Origin: an uncultured Planctomycetaceae bacterium
GTDB lineage: Bacteria > Planctomycetota > Planctomycetia > Planctomycetales > Planctomycetaceae
Length of the DNA: 43,885 nt
Assembly (NCBI GenBank): GCA_913031625.1
Contig: CAJWGB010000016.1
Span: 1-43,885, forward strand
Reading direction: 5' to 3'
Part shown: one piece after another, positions 33,706-43,885 of the stretch
Layout: the number at the start of each line of letters is the position of its first letter
Numbering within the stretch: position 1 is the first letter of the stretch
Made by a program: the position numbers and the translations under genes
The notes under the pieces: generated by a model
What the model was told of the DNA's origin: nothing
The model's input: the letters and a program-made list of their open reading frames with translations, nothing else
Databases searched by the model: none

Positions 33706-34830
33706 CTATTCTTTTGGGCGTTCGAATGATGCCGGTCGAACGTCGCCGTCCTTCAAGCCGTCACTGCCTCGGACGATGCCCCGGACACCCAGCAGCTCCG
33801 GATGGCGGGCAACCTTATCACTAAACACCTGCAGGTCTCGCACCACAGGCCTGAGATTCTGCAGCAGTGATGCGAGCGAAGCAGATGTCGAATTGAGATT
33901 GCGATACATGGTTGGATCGGTCGCCAGCCGTTTGAGCGAACCATCGTTTTCGTTCATCAGCCGCGACACTTCCGCAAGGTCCGCTGTGATTGTCTCGATG
34001 TTGGCCAGCGACTTATTCAAACGAGCAACCATCTGCGGGCTCTGATTTGCAAGAGGCTCTGTTGCGATATTGAGATTGGCAACCGTGGAATCGACTTCGC
34101 GAATGACTCCGTTGACAGCTTTGAGCGTGCCACGCGTCTCATTTAGTAACTCCGGCAGCGCCTCAAGCGTTGCCTGAAGATGTTTCTGATACCGGGGATC
34201 TGAAATGAGGGAACCGGCCGAGGCCAGAGTTTCTTCCGCGGCCCGCATTGTCTTTGTGAACTGCTCCAGCGCCTGAGCCGAACGCTGCATTGTGGAGACT
34301 CCGTCCGGACCAGTCGATTCCAGCATCTGATTCAGGTTGTGCCCCAGACGACTCCATTGCTGCCCCGTACTCTCAAACGAAGCCAGCGTGGTATCCAGTC
34401 GACGCTCGACTCGATTCACGACAGCCATGGGATCAGCCGCCGCACGACCCGCGATGCGATCGCCCTCCTTGATCGGTTCCCCTTCTGTTCCGGGGATAAT
34501 CTGAATGGCAGCGTCGCCCAGCAGCGACTGCTGAACCTGAGCTGTGGAATCATTCTTAAACGAAAACTCGTGATCAATGCGAACCGAGACCAGAACTCCA
34601 CGCCCATCAGCAATCAACTGAGTCGATTCCACCTGACCGATTCGAATGCCGCTCATCTGCACCGAAGATTGTGGCATCACTCCGGAAGCACTCGTCATCA
34701 CGATGCCGATGCGCGTCCCTGATCGCAGGCTGTTTCCGATTTCGCCAAACTTGAATACCATGATGACAGCCGCACTAACGGCGGCGATAGCCATCAGGCC
34801 GACGCGAAATTCCTGTGTTCGATCATTCAT
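33706..34830 (-). CDS. mlaD: MlaD-family (MCE domain) lipid transport protein
   Basis: This is the substrate-binding MCE subunit of an Mla-type phospholipid transporter. The 374-residue protein has one N-terminal membrane anchor (about 10-27), then an MCE domain (about 37-125) with the typical SGVMPQSSVQMSGIRIGQVE and LLGDAAIQIIPG. A long helical region follows (about 135-345) with many Leu/Ala/Asn heptads, which can form a needle or tunnel as in related multi-domain MCE proteins. Start ATG 34830 has AAGG about 8 bases upstream. It is last in the mlaE-mlaF-mlaD operon, 56 bases after mlaF. Confidence 0.9.
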   Translation of the reverse strand: MNDRTQEFRVGLMAIAAVSAAVIMVFKFGEIGNSLRSGTRIGIVMTSASGVMPQSSVQMSGIRIGQVESTQLIADGRGVLVSVRIDHEFSFKNDSTAQVQQSLLGDAAIQIIPGTEGEPIKEGDRIAGRAAADPMAVVNRVERRLDTTLASFESTGQQWSRLGHNLNQMLESTGPDGVSTMQRSAQALEQFTKTMRAAEETLASAGSLISDPRYQKHLQATLEALPELLNETRGTLKAVNGVIREVDSTVANLNIATEPLANQSPQMVARLNKSLANIETITADLAEVSRLMNENDGSLKRLATDPTMYRNLNSTSASLASLLQNLRPVVRDLQVFSDKVARHPELLGVRGIVRGSDGLKDGDVRPASFERPKE

Positions 34831-34886
34831 GATTGTGCCTTAGGAGATTCCATTCTCCCGATCCGTTCCCGGACCGTAATTCGCCG

Positions 34887-35687
34887 TCATGCGGCCAGTA
34901 AACCGGAAGTCAGCTCATCTCCGATGTATTCTCTGACCTTCGGATCGTTTGATTCTGCAAGCTCCGACGGTGATCCGTCGAAGATAACCTGCGACTCTGA
35001 GTCATCCAGTTTGGCCCGCGGATAAAACATGACCACGCGATCCGCCACACGTTGAACGGTCCTCAAATCATGAGTCACGATGATGCCCGTCACTCCTCGA
35101 GACTGTCTTACCGAATCAATCAGGTCATCAATACGTCTGCTGTTGACCGGATCGAGGCCGGTTGTTGGTTCGTCGTAGAACATCACATCGGGCCCCAGAG
35201 CCAGTGCTCTGGCGAGGCCAACGCGTTTCTGCATGCCTCCAGAGATCTCCGACGGGCGTTTGAAACGAATGTCGGCGGACAATCCAACCTCCGTGAGCCT
35301 GCCGATCACGGTCTGCTCGATCAGGTCTTCGTCTGTCTCCCCGGCATGGCGCAATCCAAAAGCCACGTTCTCGAAGATCGTGAGACTGTCGAACAGAGCA
35401 GCTCCCTGGAACAGATACCCAAGCCGCAGCCGATTGGCGAGGACCTGTTTGGGCTTCATTGAGCCAACATCCTGTCCAAACCATTTCAGCTCGCCGCTGG
35501 TCTGCGGAATCAACTGCATCATAACCTTCATGGTTACGCTTTTTCCGCAGCCACTCTCGCCAACAATCACGACCGTCTCGCCGGATGCGATCGACAGATC
35601 AACATCCCAGAGGACTTTCTGCGTTCCAAACACGCAGCTGATTCCGGACAGTTTCATTGCCGGAACAATGCTGGAGGACTGAGTCAT
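34887..35687 (-). CDS. mlaF: MlaF-type ABC transporter ATPase
   Basis: This is the ATPase subunit that powers MlaE-type lipid transport. It is a 266-residue protein from ATG 35687, whose first bases overlap the mlaE stop (ATGA). A frame extending 54 codons further upstream lies inside mlaE and looks nothing like the family. Motifs are Walker A GESGCGKS (about 43-50), Q-loop LFQGAALFDSLT, signature ISGGMQKR, Walker B VMFYDEPTTGLDP and switch HD in IIVTHDL. The segment GAALFDS...NVAF is typical of MlaF as opposed to other ABC ATPases. Confidence 0.93.
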   Translation of the reverse strand: MTQSSSIVPAMKLSGISCVFGTQKVLWDVDLSIASGETVVIVGESGCGKSVTMKVMMQLIPQTSGELKWFGQDVGSMKPKQVLANRLRLGYLFQGAALFDSLTIFENVAFGLRHAGETDEDLIEQTVIGRLTEVGLSADIRFKRPSEISGGMQKRVGLARALALGPDVMFYDEPTTGLDPVNSRRIDDLIDSVRQSRGVTGIIVTHDLRTVQRVADRVVMFYPRAKLDDSESQVIFDGSPSELAESNDPKVREYIGDELTSGLLAA

Positions 35688-36526
35688 CCCAGACCTCCCG
35701 TCGCAATGGACACTGCCTGCGGCCAAATCATGTAGTACGTCGTATTCAGGACGACATTCAGCAGAAAGTCGAGCCCGAGGATGGCAATGAAGGAAAGCAC
35801 GAACGACTGAGTCGCAGCTCGGCCAACCCCTTCCGCTCCCGCACCACACTGAAATCCCTGCTGGCAGGCAATGATCGCAATGCCACAGCCGAACAGGACA
35901 CTCTTCGTGAGTCCAGCCATGACGTCCCAGCCGGTCACAAACTGTTCTGCGAACTGCCAGTACTGAAAGGAGTTCACCCCCAAAACAACGCAGCTAAACA
36001 GCCACCCGGAAAAGATCCCTATTGCGTCGGCGATCGCGGTCAGCATCGGAATCAAAATGACGCATGCAAGAAACCGCGGAACGACGAGATATCGCACAGG
36101 GTCAGCTCCCAGCGCCGTAATCGCATGGATCTGCTCAGTGACGCGCATCGTGCCGAGCTCAGCGGCCATCGCAGACCCGACTCGACCGGCCAGCATGGTG
36201 GCTGCCAGCACAGGGCCCAGTTCAGCGACCAGAGTCATCGTAATGATCGCTCCCATCCGGGTTTCCATATGCATCAATTTGAACTGTTGATACGTCTGGA
36301 CGGCAAGGACCATTCCTATAAAGGCTCCCGTGACAAGAATCACCGGCACACTGCGGACGCCAATCTCATGCAGGATGGGAATCAACACATGCCGCCGCGG
36401 CATTCCGCCACGCAGGCGTTTGAAAATGCCGGTCGCAAAGAGAGTCAGCTCCCCGACTCCGTTCACGAAGCTGGAAGTGAGTTGTCCTAGCGCACTAATC
36501 GGGCGCGTTATTGAGAGACCGGCCAT
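35684..36526 (-). CDS. mlaE: MlaE-family lipid transporter permease
   Basis: This permease of the Mla system has 280 residues from ATG 36526 (MAGLSITRPISALGQ). A TTG 24 codons upstream is possible, but the extra residues are unlike the family and lie next to the suspected join. Family features are GAFIGMVLAVQTY.QF, the hallmark AGRVGSAMAAELGTM with VTEQIHAITALGADPVRYLV, and five hydrophobic segments. It is the first gene of the mlaEFD operon. Upstream sequence changes character within about 100 bases, so its promoter may be missing from this window. Confidence 0.92.
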   Translation of the reverse strand: MAGLSITRPISALGQLTSSFVNGVGELTLFATGIFKRLRGGMPRRHVLIPILHEIGVRSVPVILVTGAFIGMVLAVQTYQQFKLMHMETRMGAIITMTLVAELGPVLAATMLAGRVGSAMAAELGTMRVTEQIHAITALGADPVRYLVVPRFLACVILIPMLTAIADAIGIFSGWLFSCVVLGVNSFQYWQFAEQFVTGWDVMAGLTKSVLFGCGIAIIACQQGFQCGAGAEGVGRAATQSFVLSFIAILGLDFLLNVVLNTTYYMIWPQAVSIATGGLG

Positions 36527-36615
36527 TCCATTGCCAGAGAGAGTCCATTCGAGAGGGCCGGTAGTGTATTGGACCAGCAGAAAATGGAGCGACCCCAATT
36601 AGGATGCACATGGAA
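36527..36615. other. Probable junction: planctomycete to alphaproteobacterial DNA
   Basis: Genes left of this point are planctomycete in type. Those to the right are Rhodobacteraceae in type with different codon use. The plus-strand terminator at 36,616 has no gene before it, as expected if its gene was lost at a join. The exact breakpoint cannot be read by eye. Confidence 0.65.
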
Positions 36616-36640
36616 CCCGTCCAGGACCGGACGGGCATTT
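36616..36640 (+). terminator. Orphan plus-strand intrinsic terminator
   Basis: CCCGTCC (36,616-36,622) and GGACGGG (36,629-36,635) form a perfect 7-bp stem with a 6-base loop, followed by CATTTTC. No plus-strand gene ends anywhere near on the left, since mlaE runs on the minus strand. Read on the minus strand it could instead be part of the exit of the VPLPA-CTERM gene, but the T-run favours plus. Confidence 0.5.
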
Positions 36641-36664
36641 TCAAAGCCAAACCATCTATGTCAC

Positions 36665-36688
36665 GCTGACGCGGCAGATGGCGTCAGC
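36665..36688 (-). terminator. Hairpin after the VPLPA-CTERM gene
   Basis: GCTGACGC (36,665-36,672) and GCGTCAGC (36,681-36,688) form a perfect 8-bp stem with an 8-base loop, 17 bases past the stop codon of the minus-strand VPLPA-CTERM gene. There is no T-tract, so termination may be weak or the hairpin may protect the transcript end. Confidence 0.45.
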
Positions 36689-36705
36689 TTGCCATCCAAA
36701 GCGGA

Positions 36706-37377
36706 TCAGGCCGCTTTCTTGCGACGGCGCGCCAGGAAGCCTGCGCCACCAAGCGCACCCAGCAACAGCGGCAGAGAGGCCGGAACCGGCACCGGAGCAA
36801 AGCTCACTTCGAAGATCGAAGGGTTACCGTTGGTGGCAACGTAAAGCAGCGAAAGCTCACCACCGTTGAAACCCGACACCATTGTCGTGGTTTCACCGAC
36901 AGGACCAAGGCGTCCGCCGATACGCACACCATCGTCAAAGATGGCGAAGCCGTCATCATGCGTCACGGTAAAGTCGCCCGCACCGAAATTGGCCAGCGTG
37001 AAAAGGAAGAACGTGGTGGTAGCCGACCCGTTGTTGATGTTGGGATAGCTGAGCTGTGCATCCAGCGTGGCCGTTACGCCACTGAAGGAAGTATACGATC
37101 CTGTCTTGATGAATTCCCTGACAGAGTATGTCGCAGTCTGCGGCGCACCCACACGGAAATCCAGCAAGCCATTGTAACTGCCCGTTGATGTCAGGGCAGG
37201 ACCGAAGCCGCCGGACCAGGCAGTGTTGTAATTGCTCATCTTGGCCTGAGAGTCGCCGGAGTCCATGTATTCCACGTTCACGATATCCATCGTGAAGTTT
37301 CCGCCGACAGTGGCCGCGCTGGCAGCGCCGCCAACCAGACCGAAAGCCAATGCGGCCGTCATCAAAATCTTTTTCAT
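36706..37377 (-). CDS. VPLPA-CTERM sorted secreted protein
   Basis: This 223-residue exported protein has a Sec signal peptide (about 1-21, ending GAASAA). The mature part is rich in Gly, Ser, Thr and Asn with beta character and no enzyme motif. It ends in the sorting signal VPVPASLPLLLGALGG, a membrane helix and the basic tail ARRRKKAA. This VPxPA variant of PEP-CTERM (VPLPA-CTERM) is found mainly in Rhodobacteraceae and is processed by an exosortase, often for export with exopolysaccharide. Start ATG 37377 has AGGGA about 5 bases upstream. The matching exosortase is not in the window. The family is rare to absent in planctomycetes, so it marks the change of source organism. Confidence 0.9.
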   Translation of the reverse strand: MKKILMTAALAFGLVGGAASAATVGGNFTMDIVNVEYMDSGDSQAKMSNYNTAWSGGFGPALTSTGSYNGLLDFRVGAPQTATYSVREFIKTGSYTSFSGVTATLDAQLSYPNINNGSATTTFFLFTLANFGAGDFTVTHDDGFAIFDDGVRIGGRLGPVGETTTMVSGFNGGELSLLYVATNGNPSIFEVSFAPVPVPASLPLLLGALGGAGFLARRRKKAA

Positions 37378-37812
37378 TACTTCCCTCGCTTACGAAGTTT
37401 GGCGCCTCCTGACCCAAGCCGACTTTACGAAAGATCGTCCTGCGCAACCAAAGGAAGCGAATCGAATATCTTTCGAGACTACCATTCCTGGAGTTCATCC
37501 GGGAAAGGAAAACACAAAGCCGCCACAATTTTCGCGTGATTGCACCATTTTCCGACGTTTCCGGCGCCCTGTTCAAGGACGGTGCGGCAAGAAAGGCTGC
37601 CATTGTTAATATTTTGTAAACAAACCAGCAGCGCACGAAGATGCGCCCGCCTGACGCGATGTCCGGTCATTCACATACACAACCGGCCAGACCGCAACGC
37701 CGAAACTTTCCGGGTGTTCAAGGAAATCCCCGATCTGCCACGATACCCCTACCGGGAACGCAACGGAGATAGGCCGGAAAACGCGCCTAGGATCAATCTA
37801 TGGCAGGAAAAG
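37378..37812. other. Intergenic region between VPLPA-CTERM gene and tRNA-Thr
   Basis: These 435 bases have no supported gene. The AT-rich stretch TTGTTAATATTTTGTAAAC near 37,602-37,621 could be part of a promoter. No hairpin with T-tract or RNA gene other than the tRNA was seen. Confidence 0.4.
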
Positions 37813-37888
37813 TGGTGCCCCCACACGGACTCGAACCGCGGACCTACTGATTACAAATCAGTTGCTCTACCAGCTGAGCTATAGGGGC
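37813..37888 (-). tRNA. tRNA-Thr (anticodon TGT)
   Basis: This is a complete 76-base cloverleaf on the minus strand. The 7-bp acceptor is GCCCCTA/TGGGGGC, the D arm has AGCTCAGCTGGTAGAGC, and the anticodon stem ACTGA/TCAGT holds the loop TTTGTAA with anticodon TGT. The T arm contains GGTTCGAGTCC. Discriminator A and the CCA end are encoded in the DNA, as is usual for alphaproteobacteria. Confidence 0.96.
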
Positions 37889-37937
37889 ACTGCGGGCGGG
37901 AATACGAAAACCGGGGCGCCCGCGCAAGAGGGAAAGA

Positions 37938-39596
37938 TCAGCGATTTGCCCGTGCCAGCAGGCCCACGGCGGCCAGCCCCACGAGGATGACCAGCACCGC
38001 CGCCGGGGCGGCATCTCCGAGGTTCTCGAGGCTGGCCTGGTCATGCACCCGCGTGGCCAGGGTGTCGAAGTTGAAAGGCCGCAGCAGCAGCGTGGCGGGC
38101 AGTTCCTTGACGCAATCGACAAACACGAGCAGCAGCGCCGAACCGACAGACGCGCGGATCAGCGGGTAATAGACCTGCCCCAGCACCTGCCCCTGCGTGC
38201 GCCCCAGCGACCTGGCGGCCATCGGCAGGCTGGGCGACACGCGCCCCATCGCCGCATCCGCCGCGCCCTGCGCGATCGCGAAGAACCGCACCCCGTAGGC
38301 CAGCACAAGCGCAAAGGCCGACCCGGTCAGGACCAGCCCGATATCTATGCCGGTCGCCGCTTCGACCCCATCGGCCAGAACGTGATCGACGCTGGCCAGA
38401 GGGATCAGGATTCCGACCCCCAGCACGGCGCCGGGCGCGGCGTAACCGATCGTCGTCAGCGGCAAGAGCAGCCTTGGCAGGTTGCGCCCCGACAACCGCA
38501 CGCCGTAGACCATGAAGACACCTGCCAGCACAGTCACCACAGCCGCCGTTCCCCCGACGCTGAGCGTATTCCAGAGCGCGCGCAAAAGCTCGGGGTCGGC
38601 CCAGCGGTCGGAATTGCCCAGCGCGTGCGAGGTAATGACCGAAGCCGGAAGAACGAAGCCCAGCGCGAAAGGCAGGAAACAGGCGGCAAAGGCCAGCGTT
38701 CCGGCCAGCCCGGTCAGCCGATGGCGCGGCACCGGGCGGTGGCGGCCGGACATGTTGAAGAACCGCAGCCTGCGGCGGCTGAACTTCTCGAGCGTCACAA
38801 GAAGGATCACCAGAACCAGCACGACGCTGGCGATCTGCGCCGCGCCTCCGGCATTGTTGCTTTCCAGCCAGACGCTGAAAATGCCGGTGGTCAGCGTCTG
38901 CACGGCAAAGTAATCGACCGTGCCGAAATCGTTCACGGTTTCCATCATCACGATGGCCATGCCTGCGGCGATGGCCGGGCGCGCCAATGGCAGGCCGACG
39001 CGCAGAAAGCGGCCCAGCGGTCCCGCGCCAAGACTCATGGCGACCTCTTCGCTGGCGCCCGATTGTTCGCGGAACGCCGCGCGGGTCAAAAGATAGACAT
39101 AAGGGTAAAGCGCCGCCGTCAGCACCACGATGGCCGCGCCCATCGACCGGATTTCGGGAAACCAGTAATCGCGCGCGTTCTGCCAGCCCATCACCTGGCG
39201 CAATCCGGTCTGCACGGGCCCTGCATATTCCAGAAGATCGACCAGCGCATAGGCCCCGACATAGGCCGGGATCGCCAGCGGCAGCAAAAGCAACCATTCC
39301 AGCCAGCGCGAAAGGAAGAACCGGTACCGCGTGATCAGCCATGCGGCCCCGGTGCCGACCATCCCCGACAGGATGCCGACCGACAGCATCAGCACGGCCG
39401 TGTTGCCGAGATACCTGGGCAGGGTCGTCGAGATCAGGTGCGGCCAGATGTTTTCCTTGGGCGTCAACGCGATGACAAGAACCGACAGGATTGGCGCCAG
39501 AACGACGGCCGCGATCAGAACGGCCCCGGCGGACCAGACACCGCCGCCCGGCAGAATGCGTCGCGCGCGCGTTGGATTGATGGCTGTATCGGTCAT
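37938..39596 (-). CDS. fbpB: Iron(III) ABC transporter permease (FbpB/SfuB type)
   Basis: This is a 552-residue permease with two fused binding-protein-dependent transport domains and about 12 hydrophobic segments. That is the layout of ferric-iron importer permeases FbpB, SfuB and AfuB. EAA loops that contact the ATPase appear in each half: EEVAMSLGAGPLGRFLRVGLP (about 183-203, split here by a turn) and MAARSLGRTQGQVLGQVYYP (about 447-466). Start ATG 39596 has AAGGGA about 6 bases upstream. The binding protein and ATPase genes are not in the window. It reads toward the tRNA-Thr gene and is divergent from the sulfotransferase-like gene, 86 bases away. Iron is the likely substrate by family, with related metals or thiamine less likely. 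Confidence 0.9.
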   Translation of the reverse strand: MTDTAINPTRARRILPGGGVWSAGAVLIAAVVLAPILSVLVIALTPKENIWPHLISTTLPRYLGNTAVLMLSVGILSGMVGTGAAWLITRYRFFLSRWLEWLLLLPLAIPAYVGAYALVDLLEYAGPVQTGLRQVMGWQNARDYWFPEIRSMGAAIVVLTAALYPYVYLLTRAAFREQSGASEEVAMSLGAGPLGRFLRVGLPLARPAIAAGMAIVMMETVNDFGTVDYFAVQTLTTGIFSVWLESNNAGGAAQIASVVLVLVILLVTLEKFSRRRLRFFNMSGRHRPVPRHRLTGLAGTLAFAACFLPFALGFVLPASVITSHALGNSDRWADPELLRALWNTLSVGGTAAVVTVLAGVFMVYGVRLSGRNLPRLLLPLTTIGYAAPGAVLGVGILIPLASVDHVLADGVEAATGIDIGLVLTGSAFALVLAYGVRFFAIAQGAADAAMGRVSPSLPMAARSLGRTQGQVLGQVYYPLIRASVGSALLLVFVDCVKELPATLLLRPFNFDTLATRVHDQASLENLGDAAPAAVLVILVGLAAVGLLARANR

Positions 39597-39682
39597 GCCA
39601 TTCCCTTGCCCGAAACCGGTTTAACTGTCCAGAAAAGAGCGTATATTGCGCCCCTGTCACGACCATAAGAACCGGAAACCCC

Positions 39683-40558
39683 ATGCAGGTTGTCCTACAT
39701 GCAGGCGCACATAACACAGACGATGACCGCCTGATCAAATGCCTTTTGCGCAACCGCGACGATTTTCGCAAACGCGGCATCTCGGTCCCCGGTCCGTCAC
39801 GCTACCGACGGCTATTGCGCGATACCATTAATGCGATGTCCACCGGCAACCTGGCGCCGGATGCGCGGATGGTGCTGCTGGACGCAATCCTGGAAGAGGA
39901 CTACCCCGAGCGGCTTTTGCTTTCCAACGAGAACTTCTTTTCCGTTCCGAAACTGGCCGTATCGAAAGGCGTGTTCTACCCCCGGGCCGAATTGAAGCTG
40001 GCGCAGCTGTGCCGGATCTTCGAACGCGACGAGGTTGAGCTGTTCCTGGCCATCCGCAACCCGGCCAGTTTCCTGCCCGCGGTCTATGCCAATTCGCCGG
40101 ATATGAGCTTTGAGGATTTCATGGCGGGCGCCGATCCGCGCGACCTGCGGTGGTCCGAACTGGTCCGGCGCATACGCGAGCATGTTCCGGGGTTGCAGAT
40201 CACCGTTTGGTGCAACGAGGATACGCCCCTGATCTGGGCTCAGATCATCCGTGAAATGGCGGCACTCGAACACAATCAGAAGATCGTCGGCGGCTTCGAT
40301 CTGCTGTCGGACATCATGACCAAGGTCGGCATGAAGCGGTTTCGCGAATACCTCAAGAAGTATCCGAACATGAACGAGATTCAGAAACGCCGGGTCATCG
40401 CGGCGTTTCTCGACAAGTTCGCGATCGAAGAGGAAATCGAGGAAGAACTGGACCTGCCCGGCTGGACGGAAGACCTTGTCAACGAACTGTCCGATATCTA
40501 CGACGACGACGTGTTCGAGATCGGACGCATCCAGGGCGTCAACCTGATGGCGCCCTGA
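39683..40558 (+). CDS. Sulfotransferase-like protein with degenerate nucleotide-binding loop
   Basis: I recall similar 290-residue proteins only from Rhodobacteraceae, with no proven function. The N-terminus VVLHAGAHNTDDDRLIKCL has the place and rhythm of the 5'-PSB loop of sulfotransferases, where H.GAHKTG(T/S)(T/S) binds the PAPS phosphate. Here the Lys and the Thr/Ser residues are replaced by Asn and Asp, so PAPS binding is doubtful. The middle segment FLAIRNPASFLPAVY resembles the family's 3'-PSB region (RNP..), which carries the conserved Arg. The C-terminus is highly acidic (EEEIEEELDLP). It may be a non-catalytic sulfotransferase relative. Start ATG 39683 has only a weak GGAA upstream. 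Confidence 0.7.
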   Translation: MQVVLHAGAHNTDDDRLIKCLLRNRDDFRKRGISVPGPSRYRRLLRDTINAMSTGNLAPDARMVLLDAILEEDYPERLLLSNENFFSVPKLAVSKGVFYPRAELKLAQLCRIFERDEVELFLAIRNPASFLPAVYANSPDMSFEDFMAGADPRDLRWSELVRRIREHVPGLQITVWCNEDTPLIWAQIIREMAALEHNQKIVGGFDLLSDIMTKVGMKRFREYLKKYPNMNEIQKRRVIAAFLDKFAIEEEIEEELDLPGWTEDLVNELSDIYDDDVFEIGRIQGVNLMAP

Positions 40559-40571
40559 ACGCCGGGGGGCC

Positions 40572-40841
40572 TCAGCCCATTCCCAGCGCGCTCTTGTACA
40601 TCTCCAGCACCGCTTCCTCTTCGGCGATGTCGTCCGGTTCGCGCTTGCGCAGGGCGATGACCTTGCGCATCACCTTGGTGTCGTAGCCGCGCGCCTTCGC
40701 TTCGGCCATGACTTCCTTCTGCTGGTCGGCGATGTCCTTTTTCTCCATCTCCAGCCGCTCGAAGCGTTCGATGAACTGGCGCAGCTCATCGGCCGTCACG
40801 CGGTAGGTGGCATCGCCCTGTTTGTCATTCTCGTCGATCAT
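40572..40841 (-). CDS. gapR: GapR-like DNA-binding protein (DUF2312)
   Basis: This 89-residue DUF2312 protein is the length of Caulobacter GapR, a nucleoid protein that binds overtwisted DNA ahead of replication and transcription. Conserved parts are VTADELRQFIERFERLEMEKKDIA (split by a turn), EVMAEAKARGYDTKVMRKVIALRK and EEEAVLEMYKSALGM. The helix-rich, Lys/Glu-rich layout fits its tetrameric DNA clamp. I chose ATG 40841 because upstream in-frame sequence is Gly/Ala-rich and unlike the family. DUF2312 is largely alphaproteobacterial, which supports the origin assigned to this stretch. Confidence 0.93.
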   Translation of the reverse strand: MIDENDKQGDATYRVTADELRQFIERFERLEMEKKDIADQQKEVMAEAKARGYDTKVMRKVIALRKREPDDIAEEEAVLEMYKSALGMG

Positions 40842-40985
40842 CGCGTCTTTGTCCTGCTCGTTGCTGGATGTCCGGGGCCCTTTCCTAGCGCCCGCCCCTG
40901 CCCCCCGCAAGGGCGGATGCGTTGCGCCGCCGCGCGCAATGCGCTAACCCGCGCGCAGACGGAACGAAACAGGATACATGACGCG

Positions 40986-41201
40986 ATGGAAATCCTTGTC
41001 TGGATCGGGGCGGTGGTGTCGCTTCTGGGGCTGGCCGGACTGGTCTGGTGCATCCTGCGTGTGGCACGTGCGAAAAGATCCGGCCTGCCGGACGAGGAGC
41101 TGCGCGCCGTCGTTCAAAAGGTCGTGCCGTTGAACATGGGCGCACTGATGCTGTCGGTTCTGGGCCTCATGATGGTGATCCTGGGGATCTCTCTGGGCTG
41201 A
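40986..41201 (+). CDS. Small two-helix membrane protein
   Basis: This is a 71-residue protein from ATG 40986 (MEILVWIGAVVSLLGLAG). Two hydrophobic helices (about 1-24 and 50-70) flank a short basic/acidic cytoplasmic-type loop (RVARAKRSGLPDEELR). It has no known function; I recall similar small proteins in Rhodobacteraceae. An in-frame upstream extension of 23 residues is GC-rich and hydrophilic and is not favoured. It is divergent from gapR and ends 19 bases before the convergent dehydrogenase gene. Confidence 0.7.
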   Translation: MEILVWIGAVVSLLGLAGLVWCILRVARAKRSGLPDEELRAVVQKVVPLNMGALMLSVLGLMMVILGISLG

Positions 41202-41220
41202 CGCGCCGGTTGACGAACGC

Positions 41221-43392
41221 CTAGCCCGGGATTGGCCGGCGGTTCTTGCCCACCTTGTTCAGCGCATCGAAGTCTTCGCCATTCTTGACAAGCGCCGCGA
41301 AAGCCGGATCTGGGCTGTATAGCTCGGGCCAGTCGACCGCGAACCGCGTCAGCGCGCGCTGGACGTCGAAAAGGCCAAGCTGATCGGCCGCCTTCATAGG
41401 GCCACCACGCCAGCGCGGAAACTGCGTGCCCAGCACGCAGGCCACATCGATATCGGACGGGCGCAGCGCAAAGCCGGCGCGCAGCATCCGCGCACCTTCG
41501 TTCGCCATGGCCGAGATCACGCGCAGGCGGATTTCATCCTCGGACATCGCCATCCTGTCAGCCCCGGCCCCGAACAGCATCTCAGCCAGCATGTCGTCGG
41601 CATGGGCGTGCCCGGCCCCGTCCCATATATAGAAGCCCTGCCCGGACGCACGCCCCTTGCGCCCCGCCTCGACCAGACGCGCAAGGGCATCGAGATGCGC
41701 CGTCGGAAACCCGGCTGCCCGTGCCAACAGACGTCCACGCGTCAGAACAATGTCGCAGCCGATCATGTCGATCTGCCGGAAGATCCCCTGAGGCACCCCC
41801 CATTCCGCCATCACCCGGTCGATGCGTTCGATCGGGACGCCCATACCAAGCATCGAAAGCCCGGCATCGCGCGCGGCCGCGTTGATGCGTTCGGGCAGCG
41901 TACCGCCACCGGTTCCCGCCCGCACCGCAATCCGGCCCAGCTTGCCGCGCACAAGCGCGGCGACGGTCGCCACGGCCTTTGGATCCGTCTGCTTGCCGGG
42001 GATAACCTCGATCAGGCGCGACGCCCCCACCGGCGCATGGAAATGCAGCCCAAGCACATGATCGGGGCGCGCCGCGGCCGCCGCTATTGGATCTATCGGC
42101 AAGAGCCCCGATTGGGTCGCCAGGATGGCGTCTTCGGACGCCACTTCGGACAGTGCCGCGAAAACCTGTTCCTTGGTGTGCAACAGGTCGGCGACCGCCT
42201 CGACGATCAGATCGGCCTGCGACAGATCACCGAGCGATGTCGTTCCCTGCCAGCCGGCAAGATTGACGGGGGCGCCGTCGCTTCCCCGTGTCATCCGTTC
42301 GCGGGTCTTGGCCAGTGCGTCATCGGTGCGTTCGAACTGGATCACCGGCAAGCCGGCGGCCAGGCAAACGCTGGCGATGCCGCAGGCCGTCGGCCCGCCA
42401 CCGACAACGCCCACCATTTCGACACGGCGGGCGGCCCCCGGTTGGGTTTCCGGCATGTTGACGGCCCGGCGCTCTGCGCGGGTCACATGGCGCAGCGCGC
42501 GCGACTGTGACGACACAACGGCATCGCCGAAAACCTGCTCTTCCAGCGCAAGCCCGGCTTCGAACGGCAAGAGCAGCGCCGCCTCGACCGCAGCCACCAC
42601 GTCACGGGTTGCCGGCACCGGGCTGGCGGTCACCTCGTTGCGGCGGCGCGAAATCTCGGCCTGGTAGCCCGCCGGATCGCCGAACCCGTCGCGGCGCGCA
42701 CGGGTCGGTGGACGAGGCGTTTCCGAAAGATCCTTCGCCAAAGCTATGGCAGCGGCAACGGGGTCGGTCGCGGCGGCATCGTCATCGTTGTCACGGGCAA
42801 AGGGATTCGGCAGGTTGCCGGTCAGCGCCGCTGCGCCGAGACCCAGCGCGCCAATCCCGGCGACACCAGCGGCCAGCGGCCCCCAGCCGGCCAGACCACC
42901 GCCCGACACGCTGGAGAGCACCGAGGTGGTCTCCGTGACCATGCCAAGGTCACCGGCAATGCTGGACGCCAGCCAGACGTTTCCGCCGTTGAAGGCATAG
43001 TCACCGGCGGCGGCGGTCATCAACTCACCGTCCTTCAGGGTCAGCGCGAGGCTGCCGTCGTTCAGTTTCTCGGTGCGCAGCACGTCCGACTGGACGTTGC
43101 GGAAGTTCTTGGTCGTGACCGTGGTTTCGGCGTTGTTGAGCTGCGCCGTCTCGGTCGGGTTGAGCAGCGTCACCTGCGTGGTGCGAACCTCAGAGGTCGG
43201 CATGAACACCGGGGAGGTCGACGCGGTCTCGACACCGCCCAGCTCAACGCCGCTGTAGCTGTTCCAGCCCTGGACCTGCTGCTCAGTCGGGTACACGCTG
43301 GGTGCCGCGCTGCCGCGGGAGGAGGCGAGGCCGTCGGTCAGGCCGTCGGCGGTGGCAGCCAAGGGCAGCGTCGCGTTCACCAGCTCGTTCAT
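41221..43392 (-). CDS. 3-hydroxyacyl-CoA dehydrogenase (FadB/FadJ type) with unrelated N-terminus, probable chimera
   Basis: FadB/FadJ-type proteins oxidise 3-hydroxyacyl-CoA with NAD+ in fatty-acid beta-oxidation. From about residue 210 of this 723-residue frame the sequence is a normal bifunctional-enzyme C-terminal part. It has a linker (DPVAAAIALAKDL), the NAD-binding motif VGVVGGGPTACG (about 327-338), HFHAPVGASRLIEVIPG and two C-terminal helical domains ending in FPRWRGGP. The enoyl-CoA hydratase domain that should occupy the first 200 residues is missing. In its place are about 209 residues rich in Ser, Thr, Gly and Ala with a hydrophobic run (LAGWGPLAAGVAGIGALGLG) and DNDDD, which resemble the leader of a surface adhesin. 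ATG 43392 overlaps the DUF1285 stop (ATGA). The frame probably joins pieces of two genes at about 42,765. Confidence 0.75.
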   Translation of the reverse strand: MNELVNATLPLAATADGLTDGLASSRGSAAPSVYPTEQQVQGWNSYSGVELGGVETASTSPVFMPTSEVRTTQVTLLNPTETAQLNNAETTVTTKNFRNVQSDVLRTEKLNDGSLALTLKDGELMTAAAGDYAFNGGNVWLASSIAGDLGMVTETTSVLSSVSGGGLAGWGPLAAGVAGIGALGLGAAALTGNLPNPFARDNDDDAAATDPVAAAIALAKDLSETPRPPTRARRDGFGDPAGYQAEISRRRNEVTASPVPATRDVVAAVEAALLLPFEAGLALEEQVFGDAVVSSQSRALRHVTRAERRAVNMPETQPGAARRVEMVGVVGGGPTACGIASVCLAAGLPVIQFERTDDALAKTRERMTRGSDGAPVNLAGWQGTTSLGDLSQADLIVEAVADLLHTKEQVFAALSEVASEDAILATQSGLLPIDPIAAAAARPDHVLGLHFHAPVGASRLIEVIPGKQTDPKAVATVAALVRGKLGRIAVRAGTGGGTLPERINAAARDAGLSMLGMGVPIERIDRVMAEWGVPQGIFRQIDMIGCDIVLTRGRLLARAAGFPTAHLDALARLVEAGRKGRASGQGFYIWDGAGHAHADDMLAEMLFGAGADRMAMSEDEIRLRVISAMANEGARMLRAGFALRPSDIDVACVLGTQFPRWRGGPMKAADQLGLFDVQRALTRFAVDWPELYSPDPAFAALVKNGEDFDALNKVGKNRRPIPG
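42740..42790. other. Probable junction inside the dehydrogenase reading frame
   Basis: Between ARDNDDDAAAT and DPVAAAIALAKDL, codon use and protein type change without a stop. The right side lacks the hydratase domain that the left side requires. This marks either a rare gene fusion or, more likely, an assembly join to a third source. Confidence 0.55.
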
Positions 43393-43885
43393 CTCGCACC
43401 GTCGTCGAGGCGGCCCAGCGGGTGCCATGCCCCGCCACTGTACAGCCCGAGCTCGTTGCCCTGCTGCTCGGCGAGCTCGATCCAGCGGTAGTACAGATTA
43501 CGATGCAGACGCGCCTGCAAACCATGACGAACGGGCAGCGCCGGCAAGAGATCGCCATCCGGCGTCGCCAGCAGGGACAGCCGGTGTGACACATCCAGCG
43601 GTACGCGGTCACCGCAGGCAGTCACCGCGACCCAGTCGGCACCGACCTGATCGGCATCCGTGACCCATAGCGGTAGATCCTCGACGCGGATACGCAGCTT
43701 CTCTCCCGGCGTCACCAGGTAATAGTCGCCGTCGGCCTCCCGCCGGAGCACGCGGCTCAGCAAGTTGACCAGCGCCGGCCGTCGGATCGGCGTGCCTTCG
43801 TGGATCCACTCGCCGTTGGCCGCGATGCGCAGATCCATTTCGCCGCAGAAAGGCGGATCCCATCGTTCGAGCGGCGGAATGGCTT
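43389..43885 (-). CDS. DUF1285-family protein, 5' end cut by window edge
   Basis: The frame is open to the last base of the window and begins inside the gene: the first readable residues AIPPLERWDPPFCGEMDLRI match the DUF1285 entry segment. Other family features are EGTPIRRPALVNLLSRVL, YYLVTPGEKLRIRVED and, near the end, LGLYSGGAWHPLGRL. The internal ATG at 43838 is not the real start. About 165 residues are visible; full-length members have about 180-190. The function is unknown; the fold is two small beta domains. The style (VRHGLQARLHRNLYYR) is closer to gammaproteobacterial (Halomonas or Pseudomonas) members than to alphaproteobacterial ones, by memory. Its stop TGA overlaps the next ATG. 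Confidence 0.85.
   Translation of the reverse strand, partial: AIPPLERWDPPFCGEMDLRIAANGEWIHEGTPIRRPALVNLLSRVLRREADGDYYLVTPGEKLRIRVEDLPLWVTDADQVGADWVAVTACGDRVPLDVSHRLSLLATPDGDLLPALPVRHGLQARLHRNLYYRWIELAEQQGNELGLYSGGAWHPLGRLDDGAR

Follow-up and report, generated by a model that had tools for sequence, protein, structure and literature searches.

Gene content of the contig

The window, by which we mean the whole stretch of 43,885 nucleotides that was analysed, is very likely the whole of contig 16 of an assembly that has 444 contigs totalling 6,702,892 bases, with completeness rated at 96.12% and contamination at 2.13%; among the contigs retrieved, the numbering follows decreasing length (C15 has 46,097 bases and C17 42,994). 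Positions 1 to 36,600 form a segment of the assembly's own genus, planctomycete by its gene types, which ends in mla genes and a conserved mlaE promoter. The gene for the MlaE permease (35,684-36,526, minus strand) was recognized by its PF02405 domain (E 2.4e-73). Translation probably begins at 36,526 (ATG) and not at 36,598 (TTG), since in the protein alignment the relatives begin near the corresponding methionine. The mla region (34,000-36,700) was matched in all seven other genomes of the genus, with 67-72% DNA identity in the best rows; relatives were compared for this region alone, and the rest of 1-36,600 was placed by its even composition and gene types.

An earlier reading of the same DNA, made from the sequence only, had described all recognisable genes left of mlaE as planctomycete in type. 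The matches to the genus in the mla region agree with this description, and the name planctomycete itself comes from gene types which we take to be typical of the group, for example a BlaR1-DUF1559 protein and a 3-keto-disaccharide hydrolase (DUF1080) protein. Pfam and NCBIfam scans of five and seven left-hand proteins, respectively, returned general families, none of which proves a planctomycete by itself.

From 36,616 to 42,783 the window consists of DNA assigned, by its identity to Lutimaribacter saemankumensis DSM 28010, to the genus Lutimaribacter. The first gene of this segment (36,706-37,377, minus strand) encodes a VPLPA-CTERM sorting-domain protein of 223 amino acids, which scored 29.3 bits against TIGR03370 (cut-off 25.35). 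It is followed by a tRNA-Thr(TGT) gene with an encoded CCA (37,813-37,888, minus strand), found by ARAGORN and in the sequence itself, and by a gene encoding an ABC permease of 552 amino acids (37,938-39,596, minus strand) with a BPD_transp_1 domain, the best segment of which is 100% identical to a protein of L. saemankumensis. Next to it lies a gene on the plus strand (39,683-40,558) encoding an unnamed protein of 291 amino acids that had no Pfam or NCBIfam match. The gapR gene (40,572-40,838, minus strand; PF10073, E 9.6e-34) is the sole PF10073 match in the whole assembly. The last gene of the segment (41,221-42,783, minus strand) encodes a FadJ-like 3-hydroxyacyl-CoA dehydrogenase with PF02737 and PF00725 domains and has lost its N-terminal part; the FadJ match is below the NCBIfam cut-off and begins at profile position 234. 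The identities proposed in the sequence-only reading for mlaE on the left, and for the VPLPA-CTERM protein, the CCA-encoding tRNA-Thr and GapR on the right, were all confirmed. For its "FbpB permease" an ABC permease is indeed present, the name FbpB being that reading's own.

The permease had 549 relatives, and the best 80 of them were headed by L. saemankumensis DSM 28010, followed by L. pacificus at 95%, with the other 78 at 82% or less. Of these same 80, 78 carry alphaproteobacterial labels, in keeping with the alphaproteobacterial character that had been proposed for the right-hand side; the two exceptions are a MAG labelled 'Flavobacteriia', itself flagged as unverified, and Enemella evansiae. 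The search for best relatives that had been suggested along with that proposal has led to Lutimaribacter for the permease and to the assembly's own genus for the mla region.

Identity to DSM 28010 reaches 98.189% over 4,971 gapless bases (37,813-42,783), a stretch that includes the gene for the unnamed protein; the same stretch is 84.2% identical to L. pacificus. The region 36,616-37,075 aligns to DSM 28010 at 82% when gaps are counted, with 379 of 463 columns identical and one gap of 49 bases. When positions 36,500-37,812 were searched against 35 of 80 genomes, matches were obtained in two of them, DSM 28010 and a second genome (G033, 46 bases). In DSM 28010 these fall at G008:C20:689,172-689,584 (82%) and at a second place of 87 bases. 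The main match lies at 702,122-707,095 of contig NZ_FNEB01000001.1 (948,406 bases), 12.5 kb from the VPLPA match. Since both matches are on one DSM 28010 contig and only this distance apart, we read 36,616-42,783 as a single Lutimaribacter segment, in which 37,076-37,812 gave no match and is assigned by its neighbours.

We read the difference between DSM 28010 and the strain in the window as a strain-variable stretch at the tRNA-Thr gene. Both share the 98.19% stretch and a VPLPA-CTERM relative, but in DSM 28010 about 12.5 kb (L100:4586-17125), absent from the window's strain, separate the 3' end of the tRNA-Thr from a VPLPA-CTERM gene that has decayed, aligning in part and having a broken frame. 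Inspection by eye shows VPLPA-type proteins in this stretch, along with a short frame for an AlpA-like regulator. Among the three genomes compared from the genus Lutimaribacter, DSM 28010 alone matches the VPLPA stretch at length. An island or a further join at the tRNA-Thr was considered, as the DSM 28010 match halts exactly at the 3' end of this gene (37,813), and was rejected because 36,616-37,075 recurs on the same DSM 28010 contig. On the far side of the DSM 28010 stretch, no copy of more than 13 bases of the tRNA end was found.

The contig ends with two short pieces. The first one (42,784-43,331) has 548 bases and a GC content of 0.67, is open over 182 amino acids on the minus strand and is of untraced source. 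Its protein had no match in 398 Pseudomonadota genomes, a search run without a positive control, so that its empty answer is not informative alone. A search of viral contigs with this piece and the start of the helicase described below returned no relative, and NCBIfam gave no match. In the second piece (43,332-43,885), on the minus strand, a DUF1285 gene is present for the greater part of its length, and a UvrD-like helicase gene with its first residues only. The piece belongs to another proteobacterial genus, that of genome G351, as it matches G452 at 96.6% identity (554 bases) and G453 at 97.3% (552 bases), two of the 18 genomes searched in that genus; the other 16 matched more weakly. In G452 the DUF1285 gene adjoins the UvrD-like helicase gene, in the order seen in the window, and the neighbours, judged by eye from their translations, look like tmk, holB, a PilZ-like gene and tatD; genes in this order are known from gammaproteobacteria.

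DSM 28010 also has a DUF1285 protein, only 38% identical to that of the window, and two other Lutimaribacter genomes had matches of 95 bases to the DUF1285 gene at 73% and 78%, far under the 97% of G452 and G453. The viral-contig search with the DUF1285 protein found no relative. Among plasmid records 26 match this protein, all below 60% and with at most 43.6% among the 20 matches listed, and the joined region as a whole had 15 matches in plasmid records, each covering about 1% of its length.

Position of the joins

The nearest relative switches abruptly three times along the right end of the window, from the own genus (to about 36,600) to Lutimaribacter (from 36,616), then to the untraced piece and finally to the G351 genus (from 43,332). 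None of the three breaks respects the genes or signals that it meets.

The first join lies at 36,601-36,615, inside the interval 36,527-36,640 where the sequence-only reading had set the boundary. In blastn searches with seven stretches of the genus (9-14 kb around mlaE) the alignments end at 36,379-36,415, and none of the seven goes on beyond 36,415, which argues against horizontal transfer of the Lutimaribacter block. Closer to the join, a promoter-like block upstream of mlaE (TGG..TCG, then TACA or a longer form) is common to the window and the seven relatives, and in the window the alignment of the mlaE leader, trustworthy near the promoter only, reaches the AATTGG at 36,595-36,600. As similarity to the genus runs to 36,600 and similarity to Lutimaribacter starts at 36,616, 15 bases are left for the break.

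On the Lutimaribacter side of these 15 bases, positions 36,616-36,640 (minus strand) hold the remnant of a terminator-like hairpin that follows the VPLPA-CTERM gene. In DSM 28010 the hairpin is intact, with a stem of 14 pairs, a run of four U and a folding energy of -22.6 kcal/mol (z -4.96, reached by 0 of 200 shuffles). The one in the window has nine pairs and -16.8 kcal/mol (z -2.04, 6 of 200 shuffles), the outer five pairs of the stem and the U run being missing. Since these parts are lost and a promoter stands on the other side, the break halves a terminator-like hairpin and sets what is left of it against the promoter region of mlaE. No obvious shared sequence was seen at this join.

The second join (42,783/42,784) cuts the dehydrogenase gene. 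At 42,783 L. saemankumensis and L. pacificus run on alike and the window departs from both, within the N-terminal half of the dehydrogenase; in all three genomes compared from the genus Lutimaribacter the matches stop at or before this position. The third join (43,331/43,332) cuts the helicase gene, the match to the G351 genus beginning at 43,332 or 43,334. The join of two organisms claimed by the sequence-only reading therefore describes the first of these breaks correctly and misses the two further ones.

Base composition

The same reading had reported markedly higher GC and more GC-ending codons immediately to the right of the boundary, which was not borne out. The VPLPA-CTERM gene (GC 0.577, GC3 0.673) is close to mlaE (0.571 and 0.661), and the permease gene is the one that stands higher (0.663 and 0.824). 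In intervals of 1 kb, the earliest with a GC content above 0.60 is the one that begins at 37,501, and the value is back to 0.583 at 39,501-40,500. The GC step does not mark the first join, the rise coming from about 37.5 kb. By a composition score based on an order-3 Markov model, the Lutimaribacter segment (z -2.9 to 1.3) is not set apart from the bulk of the assembly.

Origin of the joined contig

With a high degree of confidence, the contig is a false join in which three organisms at the least, and probably four, are represented, a judgement that covers both wrong joining by the assembler and chimeric molecules made beforehand; the foreign part would thus come from at least two organisms, probably three. 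This agrees with the central claim of the sequence-only reading, a false assembly join of a planctomycete and a Rhodobacteraceae-like bacterium, the partner at the first join being now named as Lutimaribacter by the 98.19% identity over 4,971 gapless bases. The halved hairpin, the two additional pieces on the contig and the foreign ends of other contigs of the assembly (see below) speak for it as well. We infer that the fusion arose outside any cell, while a mixed sample, probably a marine one judging by the kinds of relatives found, was assembled or made into a library. When the assembly was searched with 20 kb of the DSM 28010 locus, the only match outside this contig was one of 74 bases at a tRNA-Lys gene.

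Most likely, host contigs were lengthened by the assembler through wrong overlaps in such a mixed sample. In the present case a planctomycete-type contig of about 36.6 kb would have been extended at its right end, at first with 6.2 kb of Lutimaribacter DNA, and then with 548 bases of untraced source and 554 bases of another proteobacterium.

A second way of arriving at a false join is that the molecules were fused physically, in whole-genome amplification or library making, and that the assembler was faithful to them. Three joins within 7.3 kb, with two pieces of about 0.55 kb among the parts, and the lack of obvious shared sequence at the first join would suit such an origin, and the occurrence of foreign ends on several contigs is compatible with either source. 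However, other contigs carry pieces of varied organisms and of viruses, as in a bulk sample, and fewer partners would be expected had a single cell been amplified. We therefore consider physical fusion a less probable route, although one to be taken seriously, and misjoining by the assembler the likelier.

Real horizontal transfer, in which a planctomycete of the host genus would very recently have acquired, across phyla and without a mobile element, a 6-kb Lutimaribacter block (VPLPA-CTERM gene, tRNA-Thr, permease, gapR and dehydrogenase) in its chromosome, is highly improbable. In its favour, the block is unbroken within a single contig, and integration often takes place at tRNA genes. Against it stand an identity of 98% across a phylum boundary, the gene or hairpin cut at every one of the three joins, the two more pieces at the contig end and the foreign ends on other contigs, together with the failure to find an integrase or transposase among the nine proteins scanned with Pfam (33.7-43.8 kb). 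The direct repeats seen in 36,300-43,885 belong to two weak families, neither of them placed at the joins, and the contig holds no second border with host DNA. The sequence-only reading had likewise judged lateral transfer much less likely than a false join and had seen no integrase at the boundary, and on both points our results lead to the same view.

A tRNA-borne genomic island resembles the segment in having a tRNA gene within foreign DNA. It differs in that here no integrase was found among the nine proteins scanned and the direct repeats seen do not bracket the block, and in that the tRNA gene sits inside the foreign DNA, away from the host border. Another parallel is the interspecies chimeric contig of metagenome assemblies (PMC7881036), with which the present one has in common an abrupt change of nearest relative, breaks inside genes and foreign contig ends. 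The contig studied here does not differ from it in kind, except that three joins follow one another within 7.3 kb. The right end is thus almost certainly an ordinary artefact rather than the product of gene transfer.

As a result, users of the assembly would wrongly assign to the host a GapR, a VPLPA-CTERM protein and an alphaproteobacterial permease. The quality rating is unremarkable, and the contamination estimate of 2.13% gives no pointer to the fault.

Ends judged foreign on other contigs

Several other contig ends also need trimming. The survey covered 136 stretches of 97 further contigs (1,960,593 bases), scored in composition windows of 1 kb. Once six wholly masked contigs had been removed, 91 contigs with 174 ends were left; 44 contigs were scored whole and count with two ends each, the others being 47 heads and 39 tails. 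Five of these 174 ends, on contigs C12, C33, C127, C39 and C110, were judged foreign: two by DNA alignment, one by viral protein matches, and two by composition and domain breaks only. This count is a lower bound, because foreign DNA of similar make-up is missed, as the unflagged Lutimaribacter segment itself demonstrates, and because as many as 495 terminal bases of a stretch fall outside the scored windows. The start of C17 was flagged by composition and, after its genes had been read, judged not foreign. Also flagged at one threshold or another, outside the five, were C3, C10 (in two places), C24, C30, C120, C403 and an inner stretch of C33.

At the start of C110 (L262:1-500, GC 0.65-0.74) amidohydrolase-like and EamA-like fragments, both matched below the Pfam cut-off, lie beside a cut sulfatase gene. 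At the end of C39 (L260:9250-10001, GC 0.64-0.70) the cut gene is again a sulfatase, here fused to an acyltransferase-like frame.

The first 2,024 bases of C12 (L162:1-2024) carry purB and a cut purC at a GC content of about 0.3 and are joined to DNA of host composition. They are collinear, at 90% over 2,029 bases, with a genome of 1.2 Mb (G402), to whose PurB the protein is 99% identical. The low GC content and the small genome of this relative suggest a SAR11-like source. A second purC is present on C13, and the cut copy on C12 is therefore surplus.

Two of the ends carry viral sequence. The start of C33 (L184:1-400) has a gene for a viral protein joined to a cut nuoD-type gene; this protein is 96% identical to that of an IMG/VR contig, the DNA matches a viral contig at 90% over 257 bases, and weaker matches occur in 46 phage records. 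The end of C127 (L279:16370-17384) is viral DNA with a frame of 212 residues, in which residues 1-132 match seven viral contigs and residues 151-212 match eleven others.
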